Part shown: in pieces, positions 5,631 through 11,449 of the stretch
Layout: every line of letters starts with the position of its first letter
How positions within the stretch are numbered: position 1 is the first letter of the stretch
Source: Flavobacteriaceae bacterium
Lineage (GTDB): Bacteria > Bacteroidota > Bacteroidia > Flavobacteriales > Flavobacteriaceae
Direction: 5' to 3'
Length of the DNA stretch: 64,000 nucleotides
NCBI GenBank assembly: GCA_029243245.1
Contig: JAQWSK010000004.1
Coordinates: forward strand, 124,001-188,000
Position numbers and translations under genes: made by a program
Notes under the pieces: generated by a model
What the model was told of the DNA's origin: nothing
Databases searched by the model: none
What the model saw: the letters and a program-made list of their open reading frames with translations, nothing else

Positions 5631-5659
5631 TTTGATTTCATATATCAAGCTTACATTTG
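5631..5659 (+). promoter_or_regulatory. Complete -33/-7 promoter of dnaB
   Basis: TTTG at 5631-5634, 17 bases, then TACATTTG at 5652-5659: both elements of the Bacteroidota housekeeping promoter at acceptable spacing. With the rnpB calibration (start 4 bases after the box) transcription would begin at about 5663, the A of the dnaB ATG, implying a leaderless or nearly leaderless message. Confidence 0.55.
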
Positions 5660-5662
5660 AAA

Positions 5663-7198
5663 ATGGAAGAAAAAAAATCTGTTTTTAAAACTATTAAACA
5701 AAACACTTCAGTCGTTAACCTTGAACAAGGAAAACTTCCTCCTCAAGCCATAGATCTGGAGGAAGCAGTTTTAGGAGCAATGCTAATTGATAAAAAGGGT
5801 GTTGATGAAGTAATTGATATCTTACAGCCTGAGGCTTTTTACAAAACGGCACATCAATATATTTTTGAAGCAATCTTGATGTTATTTGAGTCTACTGATC
5901 CAATTGACTTATTGACAGTTTCATCAGCTCTTCGAAAATCAGAAAGGCTTGAAGCGGTAGGTGGAGATTTTTATTTGGTTCAATTAACTCAAAAGATTGC
6001 AAGTTCTGCCCATATTGAATTTCATGCCAGAATTATTTTACAAAAATATATTCAAAGAAGCCTAATTAAAATATCAAGCGAAATAATAGAAAAATCTTAT
6101 AAAGACTCAACTGACGTATTGGAATTGTTAGATGAAGCAGAGTCTAAGCTTTATGATGTTACACAAGGTAACATTAAAAAATCTGCCACATCTGCTCAAA
6201 ATCTTGTTATAGAAGCTAAAAAAAGAATTGAGGATATAGCAAGCCGTGAAGGTTTAAGCGGAGTTAGTAGTGGTTTTGATGAACTTGATAAATTGACATC
6301 AGGATGGCAACCCAGTGATTTAATAATTATTGCCGCTCGACCTGGTATGGGAAAAACTGCATTAACATTGTCAATGGCAAGAAATATTGCAGTGGGGAGA
6401 CAAATACCCGTAGCATTTTTTTCTTTGGAGATGTCCTCTGTCCAACTTATTACAAGATTGATATCTGCCGAAACAGGTCTTTCATCTGAAAAATTAAGAA
6501 CAGGTAAATTAGCACAACATGAATGGCAACAATTAAATGTGAAGGTAAGTGACCTTGAAAAAGCACCCTTGTATATTGATGACTCTCCGTCATTATCAAT
6601 TTTTGAACTCCGTGCTAAAGCTAGAAGACTTTCTAGATTACACGGGATTAAGCTTATTGTGATTGATTATTTACAATTAATGACTGCAGCATCCAATAAT
6701 AAATCTGGAAACAGGGAACAAGAAATTTCAACAATTTCTAGAAACCTCAAAGCTCTTGCAAAAGAACTAGATACTCCAGTAATTGCACTTTCACAACTAT
6801 CAAGAGCAGTAGAAACAAGAGGAGGAACTAAAAGACCCCAACTGTCAGATCTAAGAGAGTCAGGAGCAATTGAGCAAGATGCAGATATTGTATCTTTTAT
6901 ATATCGTCCAGAATATTATGGAATTGATGAGTGGGATGATGAGGAGCGAAGTCCATCAGATGGGCAGGCTGAATTTATTGTAGCAAAACATAGAAATGGA
7001 GGACTAGATAATATTAGACTTAAATTTATAGCACATCTTGGTAAGTTTGAAAATATTGCTGATTTTGATTTATCTTCTGAATATCAATCAAAAATGAATC
7101 CTGAAAAAAATACTATTTCTAATAAAAATATTCTAGATGCAGATAATGCATTTGGAACGTCACAGAATGACTCAACTGGAGACGACACTCCTTTCTAA
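5663..7198 (+). CDS. dnaB: Replicative DNA helicase DnaB
   Basis: Hexameric 5'-3' helicase that unwinds DNA at the replication fork. The N-terminal DnaB domain spans about 27-130, followed by a RecA-fold ATPase with Walker A ARPGMGKT (about 225-232), Walker B IVIDYLQLM, and the arginine-rich SDLRESGAIEQDAD segment. The length of 511 residues is normal and there is no intein. An upstream in-frame TTG at 5657 is part of the promoter box, so the ATG at 5663 is the better start. The acidic C-terminal tail (DNAFGTSQNDSTGDDTPF) fits flavobacterial DnaB. The Nramp-like gene follows after 17 bases. Confidence 0.96.
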   Translation: MEEKKSVFKTIKQNTSVVNLEQGKLPPQAIDLEEAVLGAMLIDKKGVDEVIDILQPEAFYKTAHQYIFEAILMLFESTDPIDLLTVSSALRKSERLEAVGGDFYLVQLTQKIASSAHIEFHARIILQKYIQRSLIKISSEIIEKSYKDSTDVLELLDEAESKLYDVTQGNIKKSATSAQNLVIEAKKRIEDIASREGLSGVSSGFDELDKLTSGWQPSDLIIIAARPGMGKTALTLSMARNIAVGRQIPVAFFSLEMSSVQLITRLISAETGLSSEKLRTGKLAQHEWQQLNVKVSDLEKAPLYIDDSPSLSIFELRAKARRLSRLHGIKLIVIDYLQLMTAASNNKSGNREQEISTISRNLKALAKELDTPVIALSQLSRAVETRGGTKRPQLSDLRESGAIEQDADIVSFIYRPEYYGIDEWDDEERSPSDGQAEFIVAKHRNGGLDNIRLKFIAHLGKFENIADFDLSSEYQSKMNPEKNTISNKNILDADNAFGTSQNDSTGDDTPF

Positions 7199-7215
7199 AT
7201 GATAATACATTTTAA

Positions 7216-8412
7216 ATGAATAAACTCTCATTTAATTCAGGACCTGCTATTGTTGTAACTGCAGCGTTTATTGGTCCTGGAAGTTTAACAGTTTGTGCTA
7301 TTGCCGGAGTTGAATTTGGTTATGAATTATTATGGGCTGTTTTGCTTTCTTGTATGATTACTATTTTTTTTCAAAATACAGTTGCCCATTTAAGTTTTAA
7401 ATCTGGTCAAGGTTTAGTTGAATTATTTAATAACAAATTAAATAGTTCAATATCCCGATATTTATTTACTACATGGGTGTTGGTCGCAATTTTTATTGGA
7501 AATGCAGCATATGAGGCTGGAAATATATCTGGAGCTTATATAGGTTTAAAAAAGTTTATTGAATTATCATCATTTAATACTGCTCAATTTTTGAGCCCTT
7601 TTTTAAATTATTTTATAGCGATTACTATAATATTTTTAGTTTGGAATGAAAGCAATAGGTTAATTAAAAATATTCTAGGTTTTACTGTGTTTATTATGAG
7701 TGTATCCTTTTTTTTTGCAGCTATTTTAACAAAACCCTCTTTATATGAGTTATTAAAAGGGTTTCTAATTCCTAGGTGGAGGCCTGAGATATGGAAAACT
7801 ATTATTGCTGTTTTGGGAACAACAATAGTACCCTATAATTTATTTTTACATGCTGCATTGGTTAAGCACGACTTAAATCGGTTGCAATTTTCATTTTTGA
7901 AAAGAGATACAATTATTGCTGTGAGTTTTGGGGGATTGATTTCATCTGCAATAATTATATCTGCAGCAGGAGCAGAGATCAATCAAATTAATTCAATAAA
8001 TGATTTAGGAAATGCACTATATAATTTGTATGGACCAAATTCTCAAATTTTTATTTCTATTGGTCTTTTTACGGCAGGTCTAAGTTCAGCTATAACAGCG
8101 CCTATAGCTGCAGGGTATGTTGTTGAAGAATCTTTTATTAAAAATGAAAATCGAAAAAATTTAAAAAAAATTGCAATATATTTTGTAATCATTACAGGAT
8201 TAGCTTTTACTGTTTCTGGATACAACCCAATAGAGTTAATAAGAGCGGCTCAAGTAGCAAATGGATTGCTGCTTCCTGGAATAGCTTTATTTATAAGCAT
8301 CTTATGCTTTCCTAAAAAAGATGATATTTTGATTATTAAAATACGATTTTTAGGTCTTTTGATTTTATTTTTATTTTTCACTGTACTTGCTGCTAAGGTT
8401 TTATTTTTATAG
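7216..8412 (+). CDS. Nramp-related transporter, altered metal site (candidate 5-oxoproline transporter)
   Basis: A 398-residue inner-membrane protein with about 11 helices and the Nramp (SLC11) fold. Two discontinuous helices should bind the ion. In metal-transporting Nramps helix 1 has DPGN and helix 6 has MPH. Here helix 1 reads GPGS (20-23) and helix 6 reads VPY (205-207) followed by NLFLHAALVKH. The aspartate, asparagine, methionine and histidine ligands are all replaced, so Mn/Fe transport is unlikely. It sits 33 bases upstream of pxpA. In Bacillus subtilis an Nramp-family gene (ycsG) also lies beside the pxpA homologue ycsF. Transport of 5-oxoproline or a related compound is my inference from this context, not shown by sequence. 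Confidence 0.75.
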   Translation: MNKLSFNSGPAIVVTAAFIGPGSLTVCAIAGVEFGYELLWAVLLSCMITIFFQNTVAHLSFKSGQGLVELFNNKLNSSISRYLFTTWVLVAIFIGNAAYEAGNISGAYIGLKKFIELSSFNTAQFLSPFLNYFIAITIIFLVWNESNRLIKNILGFTVFIMSVSFFFAAILTKPSLYELLKGFLIPRWRPEIWKTIIAVLGTTIVPYNLFLHAALVKHDLNRLQFSFLKRDTIIAVSFGGLISSAIIISAAGAEINQINSINDLGNALYNLYGPNSQIFISIGLFTAGLSSAITAPIAAGYVVEESFIKNENRKNLKKIAIYFVIITGLAFTVSGYNPIELIRAAQVANGLLLPGIALFISILCFPKKDDILIIKIRFLGLLILFLFFTVLAAKVLFL

Positions 8413-8445
8413 TATTTTTAAATCAACATTCAATATTTAAATTTT

Positions 8446-9159
8446 GTGCAAATAAATGTCGATTTAGGAGAAGGGGGTGAAAATGATAGTATTTTCATGC
8501 CTTATATAACTACCTGCAGTATTGCTTGTGGAGGTCATTATGGCTCTATTGAAACAATTAAAGAAACAATTGCTTTAGCGTTACGTTATAAAATAAATGT
8601 TGGATCTCATCCCTCATACCCTGACAAAAAAAATTTTGGACGAAAATCTATAAGTATTAAATTAAATGAATTTCAAGATTCAATTAGAGATCAATTGTTA
8701 AATTTTAAAAAGGCACTTAGTTTTTATTCTACTAAATGGCACCATTGTAAAGCTCACGGAGCATTATATAATGATATAGCAGATAATGGTAAATTGACCG
8801 ATGCTTATTTGGAGGTTTTAAGTGATTTTCCAGAAATTAACTATTTAATCCTCCCAACTTCAAAACCAATAATTGAATCTGCTAAAAAAATGAATTTTAA
8901 AGTTTTAAAAGAAGTATTTTCTGACAGGAAATATGATGAAGTATTGTCTTTGATTCCAAGAAATAATAAGGGATCAATTATTACTTCTTCAAATGTTTTT
9001 CTAATGAATTTAAAACTTCTATTAGATGGAAAAATTCAAACTTCAGATGGGGTAATTAAAAATGTATTATATGACACTATTTGTCTTCATAGTGATACAC
9101 TTAAATCTAAAGAATTTATCAATACTATAGCAAAACAAATCAATAAAAAACAATTGTAA
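8446..9159 (+). CDS. pxpA: 5-oxoprolinase subunit A (LamB/YcsF family)
   Basis: Subunit A of the ATP-dependent prokaryotic 5-oxoprolinase, which opens 5-oxoproline (pyroglutamate) to glutamate. The 237 residues show the family motifs: VDLGEGGE near the start, CSIACGGHYG, VGSHPSYPDKKNFGRKSI, and KAHGALYND, giving conserved acidic and histidine residues of a deacetylase-like barrel. The start is GTG at 8446, which places the conserved VDLGE motif at residue 5 as in homologues; no ATG is suitably placed. Its stop overlaps the ATG of pxpB by one base, indicating coupled translation. Confidence 0.92.
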   Translation: MQINVDLGEGGENDSIFMPYITTCSIACGGHYGSIETIKETIALALRYKINVGSHPSYPDKKNFGRKSISIKLNEFQDSIRDQLLNFKKALSFYSTKWHHCKAHGALYNDIADNGKLTDAYLEVLSDFPEINYLILPTSKPIIESAKKMNFKVLKEVFSDRKYDEVLSLIPRNNKGSIITSSNVFLMNLKLLLDGKIQTSDGVIKNVLYDTICLHSDTLKSKEFINTIAKQINKKQL

Positions 9160-9896
9160 TGTTATTAAAAGTTAAGTTTAAAGAGTTTGGAAAAAAAGTA
9201 TATATTATAAATATCACAAAAAATATTCATGCAAATAGTATTATTGCTTGGCAATCAGAATTATGTAATTCTATTCAAAATGAATTTAAAAACATAATAG
9301 AAGATGTTGTTTTTTCTTTATCAGAGATTACACTTTTTTTTAAAGAAATACCTGATGATAATGATAAAAGGCTAATAAGATTATGGGTAAGGGGTTTTTC
9401 TTTAAGGAAACAAACTATAAAAAGAAATTTTTGGGAAATACCTGCTTGCTTTGATCCTATATATTCTGAAGATTTAATGAATTATTTTCAAAAAAATTCA
9501 TTAGCTTGTAATACATACATTTCAGATTTTCTAAAATGTATTTTTCAAGTACACCACTATGGTTTTTTACCAGGTTTTTTTTATTCTACAGGACTTCCAA
9601 CTAAATTAAATTTACCAAGGAAAGCCAGTCCTTTAAAATTAGTAGAACCTGGCACTTTAGCTATAGGCGAATCATATGTTGGAATTTATCCTCAAAAAAG
9701 TCCAGGAGGGTGGCATAGAATTGGAAAAACTTATTATTCTTTTTTTAATAGGTTAAATAATCCTCCTTGCTTCGCTTTGCCAGGCGATAAGATTAAATTT
9801 ACCTCTATAAATCTTAATGAGTATCAAAAACAAAATGACAAGATTTATGACACCAAAAAATTACCAAATTCAACATCATTTGAAATCATCTGTTAA
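9159..9896 (+). CDS. pxpB: 5-oxoprolinase subunit B (KipI family)
   Basis: Subunit B of the 5-oxoprolinase, homologous to B. subtilis KipI. The C-terminal cyclophilin-like half carries the diagnostic run YGFLPGFFYSTGLP, LPRKASP, AIGESYVGIYPQKSPGGWHRIGKT and ALPGDKIKF. The N-terminal half is more divergent, as usual in this family. Older annotations call such genes allophanate hydrolase subunit 1 or kinase inhibitor; the adjoining pxpA and pxpC make 5-oxoprolinase the better reading. It shares its first base with the end of pxpA, and pxpC begins inside its 3' end in another frame. Confidence 0.9.
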   Translation: MLLKVKFKEFGKKVYIINITKNIHANSIIAWQSELCNSIQNEFKNIIEDVVFSLSEITLFFKEIPDDNDKRLIRLWVRGFSLRKQTIKRNFWEIPACFDPIYSEDLMNYFQKNSLACNTYISDFLKCIFQVHHYGFLPGFFYSTGLPTKLNLPRKASPLKLVEPGTLAIGESYVGIYPQKSPGGWHRIGKTYYSFFNRLNNPPCFALPGDKIKFTSINLNEYQKQNDKIYDTKKLPNSTSFEIIC

Positions 9897-10728
9897 AATA
9901 ATTGATCCTGGATTTTATACGTCTATTCAAGATAATGGTCGTTATGGTTATCGAAGATTGGGTTTTCCTGTTTCAGGCCCTATGGATAAACTTTCATTTA
10001 CAACTGCAAATAAATTAGTTGGAAATTTTAATAATGAACCTGCTTTAGAATCTACATTTAAAGGTCCAAAACTCTTGTTTTCAGGTCCTAGTTGGGTAGC
10101 TGTAAGCGGAGCAACAATTCCTGTACTTAAGAATGATAGAATTATTGAAATAAATAAACCTTTTTTTTGTGATTTAGGAGATGTTTTAGAGTTAGGACCT
10201 GTAATTAAAGGTGTTAGAAGTTATATTAGTTTTGAAGGCGGGATATTTAAAAATAAGGTTTTCGGAAGTTATTCTCAATATTATCCAATAACTAAAAATG
10301 CTACTATAAAAAAGGGAGAAAAGATTTCACTTAAGAGCTCAACAAGTCTTTTAAAGCAAACGAAGTATAATTTTGAGATAAATAATTTAAGATTTGATCA
10401 ACAATTAGAAGTTTTTGAGGGCCCATATTGGAAGTATCTGTCTAATGAATTAAAAAAGATAATATTAAATATTGAATTTAAAATAGGCTTAAACGATAGG
10501 ATGGCTTATCGGTTGACTGGAAGTTTGCCGAAAAATAAAATTTCAACTCCCAGCGCACCTGTTCTTCCTGGCACAGTTCAATTAACACCAAATGGAGATT
10601 TAATAATTGTAATGAGAGACGGACAAGTTACAGGTGGATACCCTAGGATACTCCAGTTGACTGAAAAATCTCAGTCAGACTTGTCCCAGTTTACAAACGG
10701 AAAGTTAATTAATTTTAGAATTATCTAG
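9847..10728 (+). CDS. pxpC: 5-oxoprolinase subunit C (KipA family)
   Basis: Subunit C of the 5-oxoprolinase, related to the biotin-dependent carboxyltransferase/KipA family. Motifs are PGFYTSIQDNGRYGYRRLGF, VSGPMDKLSF, and near the C-terminus PSAPVLPGTVQLTPNG and QVTGGYPRI. The start is uncertain: ATGs at 9817, 9835 and 9847 and a TTG at 9880 are in frame. Homologues begin only a few residues before the PGFYTSIQD motif, which favours 9847 or the TTG at 9880. I chose the ATG at 9847. It overlaps pxpB by about 50 bases, and its 3' end overlaps the convergent nitroreductase by 8 bases. Confidence 0.9.
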   Translation: MTPKNYQIQHHLKSSVKIIDPGFYTSIQDNGRYGYRRLGFPVSGPMDKLSFTTANKLVGNFNNEPALESTFKGPKLLFSGPSWVAVSGATIPVLKNDRIIEINKPFFCDLGDVLELGPVIKGVRSYISFEGGIFKNKVFGSYSQYYPITKNATIKKGEKISLKSSTSLLKQTKYNFEINNLRFDQQLEVFEGPYWKYLSNELKKIILNIEFKIGLNDRMAYRLTGSLPKNKISTPSAPVLPGTVQLTPNGDLIIVMRDGQVTGGYPRILQLTEKSQSDLSQFTNGKLINFRII

Positions 10729-11449
10729 AATAATAGATCTCATTAGTAGGTATTCTAAATCTTTTACCATAAACTCCTTCTTCTTTACGTATCCCACACC
10801 CTATAACCATACTGATTTCAACCTTAGATGGCAAGTCTAGGTCTTTTTTTATTCTATTTGAGTCAAACCCTTCCATTGGACAAGTATCATATCCAATTCC
10901 AGCCATGCTTACCATAAAAGATTGAGCTGCTAAAGCCGCACTTTTATGAGAAACCACTCTTAAATCACAGCTTCCAACTTCACGATATATTGGCTTGTAT
11001 AAACCAACCACTTTTGTATATATTTTTTTTATAAAACTTGTTAACCCAAAAAAATCTGAATAAAGTAATGGAACTAATTTATTATAATAACGTAAAGATT
11101 TCTTTTTAAGATTAGGATCTAAATTTTCAATTTTGGATAAAGAGGATTTGATATTAGTTACATTTGAATCAAGTCTTTTTCTCCACAAATCTTTTCTAAC
11201 AACGACAATAACAATTTGTTCGGCTGTTTTTGCTGCTGGTTGATTGAAGCAGGATTTGACAATTTTTCCTTTTTCATATTTTGAAATTATATGGTGAAAT
11301 TCCCATAATTGCATATTACTACTTGAGGGTGATAGTGTAGCCTGTATGATACATTTTTTAACTTTCTTTTGATCTATTGTTTTTTCTGGATCATAAACAC
11401 GTACAGACCTTCTAAAATCTATAGCCTCACTAACTGATTTTTCTTGCAT
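10721..11449 (-). CDS. Nitroreductase family protein
   Basis: A flavin-dependent oxidoreductase of the nitroreductase superfamily (242 residues). FRRSVRVYDPEKTID (12-26) is the usual FMN phosphate-binding start, followed by ATLSPSSSNMQLWEFHHI, where the SPSSSN segment contacts FMN. MAGIGYDTCPMEGFDSNRI near residues 180-198 is the conserved C-terminal flavin-binding section. The physiological substrate cannot be told; family members reduce quinones, nitro compounds or dihydropteridines with NAD(P)H. It is alone on this strand, convergent with pxpC and divergent from ilvD. Confidence 0.85.
   Translation of the reverse strand: MQEKSVSEAIDFRRSVRVYDPEKTIDQKKVKKCIIQATLSPSSSNMQLWEFHHIISKYEKGKIVKSCFNQPAAKTAEQIVIVVVRKDLWRKRLDSNVTNIKSSLSKIENLDPNLKKKSLRYYNKLVPLLYSDFFGLTSFIKKIYTKVVGLYKPIYREVGSCDLRVVSHKSAALAAQSFMVSMAGIGYDTCPMEGFDSNRIKKDLDLPSKVEISMVIGCGIRKEEGVYGKRFRIPTNEIYYSR

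Follow-up and report, generated by a model that had tools for sequence, protein, structure and literature searches.

A candidate 5-oxoproline importer encoded ahead of pxpABC

The window analyzed here is a stretch of 64,000 nucleotides from a Flavobacteriaceae bacterium (contig JAQWSK010000004.1, positions 124,001 to 188,000) belonging to a genome of 1.8 Mb, in which a gene for an Nramp-fold protein stands directly ahead of the 5-oxoprolinase genes pxpA, pxpB and pxpC. This protein is probably (at a probability of roughly 0.77) an importer of 5-oxoproline (pyroglutamate) that serves PxpABC; it would be a secondary transporter with the LeuT fold, within the Nramp superfamily. Three observations point to 5-oxoproline as the likely substrate: the metal ligands of canonical Nramps are absent, the gene cluster is conserved, and transporters of this kind are associated with two unrelated families of lactam hydrolase. 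Support also comes from pxpA loci that have a major facilitator superfamily (MFS) transporter and lack a nearby Nramp gene. Among 17 pxpA loci with no Nramp gene within 5 kb, where five hydrophobic or small neighbours were tested, an MFS gene lies between pxpC and pxpA in two and beyond pxpC in two more (L208-L211).

Once imported, 5-oxoproline would be passed to the PxpABC encoded directly behind the transporter and opened to glutamate. In the LeuT/APC amino-acid carriers, a GxG motif holds the carboxylate through backbone amides. By analogy, the Gly-x-Gly turn that replaces the DPGN Asp in the unwound first transmembrane helix (TM1) may provide free backbone amides for the substrate carboxylate, and Y207 (TM6), N103 (TM3) and N349-G350 (TM10) would line a lactam pocket.

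The metal site of canonical Nramps is replaced

We aligned the site across 191 relatives comprising 118 sequences of clade A (the window protein included), 28 of its sister clade A2, 15 of clade B (12 of them from pxpA searches) and 30 MntH-type proteins. In this alignment, the site for metal and protons reads D, N, E, M and H in 30/30 MntH-type proteins, and the window protein departs from all of them at five positions. Where canonical Nramps have DPGN in TM1, MPH in TM6 and Glu in TM3, it carries GPGS, VPY and N103; the sequence-only reading had placed the first two motifs at residues 20-23 and 205-207 of an Nramp-like protein, and both positions are confirmed in the 398-aa open reading frame. 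No aligned sequence of A, A2 or B lacks G20 (in place of Asp) or N103 (in place of the TM3 Glu), and Y207 (TM6 His in MntH) and N349 (Leu in MntH) are each missing from one A2 row only. G350, which is Ser in the MntH type, is found in 99% of A, 96% of A2 and 80% of B. None of these five residues (G20, N103, Y207, N349, G350) appears in any of the 30 MntH-type proteins, which have D, E, H, L and S instead. T202, at the TM6 Ala position, is Thr in 100% of clade A, and TM10 position 352, which we take to be the equivalent of DraNramp Q378, is Gln in 30/30 MntH-type proteins and mostly Leu in clade A. The named-record clade-A loci were found with a search pattern that held the GPG motif, so the motif counts they yield are not independent.

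The cluster and its altered motifs are conserved in the genus

A survey of the genus that included the window's own genome found the transporter with adjoining pxpA and pxpB in 7/7 genomes, and the site residues GPGS, G-N, VPY and N-G are kept in all seven. Pairwise ratios of nonsynonymous to synonymous substitution (dN/dS) for the transporter range from 0.17 to 0.33 (NG86; computable for 10/21 genus pairs, at dS values of 0.73-1.50 that are partly saturated). Conservation in every genus member together with these ratios indicates that the cluster and the altered motifs are not a product of chance. Decay of the gene was considered and rejected on the same ratios, and on the lack of inner stops in 7/7 genus members.

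Fold and phylogenetic position

The Nramp family profile is matched well above its cut-off of 29.8 bits (Table 1). Among NCBIfam models, the protein scores below the cut-offs of MntH (126.3 bits, cut-off 430) and Nramp (91.3, cut-off 272.5) and exceeds that of NF037982 (71.5, cut-off 50). An AlphaFold2 model built with 46 relatives (predicted local distance difference test 82.7, predicted template modelling score 0.84) breaks helix 1 at residues 19-20 and helix 6 at 204-205, at both motifs, as expected of the LeuT fold. The closest solved structures are Nramps: 6d91 (DraNramp) matches with a Z of 44.9 and a root-mean-square deviation (rmsd) of 2.8 over 374 residues, and EleNRMT (7qia) with a Z of 39.4. 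The entry 9a52, an integrative model of B. subtilis YcsG, matches with a Z of 35.7 and an rmsd of 3.8 over 374 residues at 17% identity. After the Nramps, the fold neighbours are LeuT-fold carriers of amino acids (BasC, AdiC, ApcT, AgcS), of K+ and Cl- (KimA, NKCC1) and of hydantoin (Mhp1). The window protein shares a Gly-rich break in TM1 with the LeuT-fold carriers of amino acids and hydantoin.

In the tree, the window protein falls inside a 28-row clade-A branch (96/97), and clade B forms a branch of its own (100/100). The protein sits on a long branch (2.57) and so evolves fast; A2 sequences are 32-37% identical to it (27 of 28 sequences). Clade A was sampled in the window's phylum and on haloarchaeal plasmids, and members of clade B occur in A. 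baumannii, Klebsiella, Bacillus badius and elsewhere. Two other identities were rejected for the window protein: that of an ordinary MntH, by the site residues and the tree, and that of a clade-B member, by the 17-23% identity between clades A and B and their separate, well-supported branches.

Several characterized proteins seem to fall in clade B. The B. subtilis gene order, which we take to be pxpA, the Nramp gene ycsG and then a hydro-lyase gene, is given in part by the papers cited here. YcsG and PxpT appear to belong to clade B, to judge by the Bacillus badius locus, where pxpA is followed by the Nramp gene and then by a hydro-lyase gene, by the 50% identity of PxpT to YcsG and by a legend in PMC12873925. 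MumT is probably a further member, since the genes of an unannotated A. baumannii stretch (L066) fit the mum operon. A search of PDB sequences with the Bacillus clade-B protein gave one match, which is not YcsG. The sequence-only reading had likened the cluster to that of B. subtilis, where an Nramp-family gene sits beside pxpA, but the MumT-like and Bacillus-type neighbours of pxpA examined belong to clade B and not to the clade A of the window.

Some sequences at the edges of this survey are of separate interest. The window genome encodes a second, very divergent Nramp-like protein (L002:1417-2625, contig C7; 60 bits) with GVSH in TM1 instead of DPGN or GPGS. The loci L187:4866-6167 (GPGS with SSFSIA) and L188:3-1256 (GTGS with TTVSSV) encode further Nramp-fold types of uncertain placement. 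The clade-A gene of L152, from a Verrucomicrobiaceae metagenome-assembled genome (JAACDM010000053.1), nests among those of Flavobacteriaceae, pointing to either misbinning of the contig or gene transfer.

Clade A and A2 transporters co-occur with two lactam-hydrolase families

Co-occurrence was examined in 296 genomes of the window's phylum, a sample drawn by homology; to judge by the nearest named relatives, which are Flavobacteriaceae, this phylum is Bacteroidota. Relatives were taken from among the matches listed down to an E-value of about 5e-19, beyond which more distant ones may be missed, and clade B was sought only around pxpA. Clade A is present in 36 of these genomes, A2 in 27 and clade B, within 5 kb of pxpA, in 9. 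The enzyme gene pxpA is present in 57 genomes (one genome, G106, fell below the Pfam cut-off and was not counted), hyuB (hydantoinase/oxoprolinase B) in 45, and both in one. Two outliers, L187 (genome G162) and L188 (genome G119), were left out of this tally; L187 is still among the 28 A2 rows, and G162 has pxpA elsewhere.

Inspection of the tally reveals pxpA in 35/36 clade-A genomes versus 22/260 others, and within 5 kb of the transporter in 31/36. For A2, hyuB is present in 21/27 genomes and pxpA in the other six. That is to say, one of the two enzyme genes accompanies A or A2 in 63/63 genomes, versus 38/233 genomes without these clades. As a control, we took genomes in which an MntH-type protein matched at 359 bits or more and no A, A2 or B was found; pxpA or hyuB was present in 4/98 of them. 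These genomes were picked by score, with motifs read in the 30 that had loci, whose flanks were at most 1.5 kb. MntH lay within 5 kb of pxpA in 0/9 genomes having both, with distances read by eye. The sole clade-A genome without pxpA (G282) has a HyuAB-type gene adjoining the transporter. Its transporter groups with a pxp-linked relative (93/94) within an otherwise pxp-linked branch, a position that suggests a change of enzyme partner.

5-oxoprolinases are known from both PxpABC and HyuAB, two enzyme types with no relation to each other (PMC13274462). The transporter family appears to follow the activity and not one particular enzyme, which argues that a shared substrate, 5-oxoproline, is carried. 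In this respect, the occurrence of related transporters with lactam hydrolases of two non-homologous kinds points independently to the substrate.

Locus neighbourhoods extend the enzyme link

Counts of loci were made after short duplicates (L001, L036, L042, L047, L060, L064) had been dropped. Within 5 kb, pxpA is present at 104/117 clade-A loci and hyu genes at three, and hyuA and/or hyuB at 12/28 A2 loci. In the best 80 clade-A loci from named records, pxpA lies within 5 kb in 74, and the contig breaks off at two of the six unlinked loci (L144, L152). Nine clade-B loci, chosen for organism variety from 168 records found by transporter query, have pxpA within 5 kb in 8/9, the exception being Ilyobacter. 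The sequence-only reading had tied the altered-motif subfamily to pxpABC; in this survey the tie to 5-oxoprolinase-type enzymes extends beyond the window, and the lack of a pxp link that would speak against it did not appear.

The haloarchaeal clade-A-like loci have hyuA and hyuB directly downstream of the transporter in 5/5 fetched, these five coming from at least 13 Haladaptatus and Haloarcula records, with a weaker one (H10, 24.7%) left out. Glutamate is the product of 5-oxoprolinase, and a glutamate dehydrogenase gene lies within 5 kb in 2/5 of these loci. The HyuAB proteins tested (n = 5) match caprolactamase and acetophenone-carboxylase models, all below cut-off, and are most like caprolactamase.

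These enzymes bear on a second candidate for the cargo, namely another small organic anion (a hydantoin-type lactam, D-5-oxoproline, an N-carbamoyl compound or a glutamate-like one) on which these Pxp and HyuAB enzymes really act. The relatives of HyuAB include caprolactamases and hydantoinases, an aspartate/glutamate racemase family protein is encoded in 3/5 haloarchaeal clusters, hydro-lyase and biotin-carboxylase genes are frequent additions to clade-B clusters, and the window Pxp proteins score below curated cut-offs, all of which would fit such an anion. Set against this, 5-oxoproline is the best-known substrate of both enzyme types, and related transporters accompany both of them. PxpABC, moreover, is required for the use of 5-oxoproline in B. 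subtilis and C. glutamicum (PMC13274462), and a different organic anion as the cargo seems improbable to us.

Two kinds of locus stand out from the pattern. Behind the clade-A transporter of L148 (Kordia sp. TARA_039_SRF), pxpA and pxpB are fused in a 490-aa frame (9228-10697) with both Pfam domains above cut-off. The clade-A transporters L124:6884-8005, L140:6854-8005 and L189:3838-4992, which have no pxp gene nearby, stand directly behind one common gene family (DUF2891 in the L124 copy), a possible further partner.

Manganese phenotypes and other evidence against 5-oxoproline import

Part of this reading is already in print. The Nramp-family gene pxpT of C. glutamicum is required for growth on 5-oxoproline, and pxpT mutants grow normally on glucose; the same growth need is cited for B. 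subtilis ycsG, with metal transport not excluded (PMC13274462, 2026). PxpT has thereby overtaken the claim of the sequence-only reading that the Nramp fold would have a substrate class not yet generally recognised. What is newer here is the recognition of clade A as a probable second group for 5-oxoproline, with enzyme partners of two non-homologous kinds, and of a single site signature that A and B have in common. No paper linking clade A to 5-oxoproline, or Nramp proteins to HyuAB, was found, as judged by titles and abstract starts and with subscription papers not covered, and the strings 'oxoprol' and 'operon' do not occur in the available text of PMC12873925.

Published work is divided over the cargo of YcsG, Mn2+ or 5-oxoproline. 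YcsG (MntG) has been argued to be an Mn2+ importer, with the caution that earlier ycsG work possibly had polar effects (PMC10448178). These Mn data and several of our own results weigh against 5-oxoproline import. The evidence for the clade-B-type proteins YcsG and MumT is direct and, for MumT, complemented: cell Mn rose on overexpression of YcsG, without which a triple importer mutant was unobtainable (PMC10448178), and cells with mumT deleted contained less Mn and tolerated more of it, the Mn level being restored by complementation (PMC5050338). In clade A, E100 near the TM3 site is acidic (97% Glu; Asp in MntH). The enzyme link is one-way, with no A, A2 or B found in 7/57 pxpA genomes and 22/45 hyuB genomes, and the Fisher p of 5e-38 for 63/63 versus 38/233 overstates the case, given the relatedness of the genomes (30 genera for the 63). 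Neither enzyme lies within 5 kb at 10/117 clade-A loci and 16/28 A2 loci, nor near the members of an A2 group of nine in which the TM6 proline is T or A. Six of these nine (L160-L164, L169) adjoin 2-oxoacid:ferredoxin oxidoreductase-type genes (Pfam on L163 only) and have hyuB elsewhere in their genomes. The neighbours of unlinked A and A2 loci share no single theme (2-oxoacid oxidoreductase at six loci, a DUF2891 gene at three, alpha/beta hydrolase with RmuC at three; Pfam on one copy each). The HyuAB-type gene of G282 lies on the opposite strand to the transporter, and hydantoinases and other lactamases also occur among HyuAB proteins.

A metal-based alternative keeps the window protein a divalent-metal (Mn2+) importer whose site has been rebuilt and whose operon link would reflect a metal need of the enzymes or shared regulation, as has been proposed for MntG and MumT. 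In keeping with this, EleNRMT carries Mg2+ and Mn2+ with canonical ligands changed, its TM6 Thr is common to clade A, and the acidic E100 is kept near the TM3 site. All aligned members of A, A2 and B go further in having Gly for Asp and Asn for the TM3 Glu, as EleNRMT retains both acids. MntH-type genomes rarely carry the enzymes (4/98), and PxpT is needed on 5-oxoproline and dispensable on glucose (PMC13274462). We consider metal import unlikely on this balance; the many hyuB genomes without a transporter and the acidic E100 make 5-oxoproline import slightly less certain and metal import slightly more so. The proposal of the sequence-only reading that 5-oxoproline or another organic anion is carried rather than metals is upheld as to the replaced metal-ligand positions and the enzyme link, and is opposed by the Mn import attributed to YcsG (PMC10448178) and MumT (PMC5050338).

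The two phenotypes, both reported for clade-B-type proteins, might also be reconciled if the transporter vented 5-oxoproline outward or moved a metal-organic acid complex. Loss of PxpT blocks the use of external 5-oxoproline, which argues for import (PMC13274462), and none of the side chains D, N, E and M, the four canonical metal ligands compared, is kept; we regard either version as highly improbable.

Import of 5-oxoproline by clade A raises a wider proposal, which we put forward tentatively and at less than even odds: that the Gly-motif clades A and B, rather than being degenerate metal transporters, form an organic-anion (lactam or amino-acid-like) branch of Nramps with one shared site, that metal transport arose from such carriers, and that the Mn roles of MntG and MumT are indirect. 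The proposed direction of change follows the rooted tree of a preprint, in which Nramp-related proteins are paraphyletic around canonical Nramps with neurotransmitter-sodium symporter (NSS) carriers, which are of the amino-acid type, as the outgroup (PMC12873925). The same source (2026) places MntG in 'G-motif 3' and, apart from that group and the NRMT-like one, describes the Nramp-related groups as entirely uncharacterised. If 5-oxoproline import is true, these groups are mislabelled by automatic annotations of the kind 'Nramp family divalent metal transporter'. The shared site signature names the residues to mutate.

Gene layout of the window

The features of the cluster and its neighbours are listed in Table 1. 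A 33-base gap separates the transporter stop from the pxpA GTG (8412 to 8446), pxpA and pxpB overlap by one base, and pxpC overlaps pxpB with any candidate start, by 80 bases from the first ATG (9817) or by 17 bases from a TTG (9880); the coordinates bear out the spacing and overlaps described in the sequence-only reading. By gene order and overlaps, the transporter gene and pxpABC form an apparent operon, a feature in common with the PxpT/YcsG-type transporters. All three PxpABC subunits are present together at the locus by Pfam. Against NCBIfam, PxpA scores 178.8 bits (cut-off 213), PxpB 99 bits with TIGR00370 (cut-off 145.55) and PxpC 181.9 bits with TIGR00724 (cut-off 230.2). The best matches are Pxp models, except that the top match of PxpC is the broader TIGR00724, and all scores lie below cut-off, which suggests that the window subunits are divergent members.

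The flanking genes are a separate observation. The dnaB gene ends 17 bases upstream of the transporter gene, and a dnaB frame is directly upstream of the transporter in 7/7 genus genomes (L222-L227 and the window) and in no other locus examined, many of which have short flanks. On the other side, a nitroreductase-family gene stands tail to tail with pxpC, with an overlap of 8 bases.

Table 1. Features of the transporter-pxpABC cluster and flanking genes, in window coordinates
Feature	Position	Strand	Remarks
dnaB	5657-7216		directly upstream of the transporter gene; the span given runs to the transporter start, and dnaB itself ends 17 bases before it
Nramp-fold transporter (clade A, proposed 5-oxoproline importer)	7216-8412	+	398 aa; PF01566 216.3 bits
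Transporter motif residues			G20-P21-G22-S23 (TM1), G102-N103 (TM3), V205-P206-Y207 (TM6), N349-G350 (TM10)
TM1 GPGS codons (residues 20-23)	7273-7284	+	DPGN in 30/30 MntH-type comparators
TM6 VPY codons (residues 205-207)	7828-7836	+	MPH in 30/30 MntH-type comparators
pxpA, 5-oxoprolinase subunit A (LamB/YcsF)	8446-9159	+	GTG start; PF03746 LamB_YcsF 200.4 bits, above cut-off
pxpB, 5-oxoprolinase subunit B	9159-9896	+	PF02682 CT_C_D 127.8 bits, above cut-off
pxpC, 5-oxoprolinase subunit C	9817-10728 (open reading frame)	+	PF02626 CT_A_B 193.1 bits, above cut-off
Nitroreductase-family gene	10721-11449	-	tail to tail with pxpC

Comparison with known systems

The window protein has the overall fold of DraNramp and its PF01566 domain in common with it. 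In contrast, DraNramp D56, N59, M230, H232 and E134 correspond to G20, S23, V205, Y207 and N103 of the window protein. Of these DraNramp residues, D56, E134 and H232 are tied to proton movement (PMC12873925). EleNRMT is similar to the window protein in its Nramp fold, in its altered ligand set and in a Thr in place of the TM6 Ala (EleNRMT Thr224), yet it keeps Asp55 and Glu133, which are both lost in the window protein as G20 and N103 (PMC8806188). The TM1 Asp is called universally conserved in all SLC11 proteins in that same paper.

Clade B, in its 15 aligned sequences, shares with the window protein Gly for the TM1 Asp, Asn for the TM3 Glu, Tyr for the TM6 His and N-G or N-A in TM10. The motifs differ in that clade B has GPGF in TM1 and VGGY in TM6, whereas clade A has GPG[TS] and mostly VPY. 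The Slc11 'orphan' outgroup of Cellier, recognised as diverged at the metal site (DPGN, MPH), has V-Y in h6 and Y-N in h3 (PMC10606218), which equal V205/Y207 and Y99/N103 of the window protein with the register of Y and N matched by hand. The LeuT-fold carriers of amino acids and hydantoin (BasC, AdiC, ApcT, AgcS, Mhp1) share the fold at only about 8-15% identity and form separate families.

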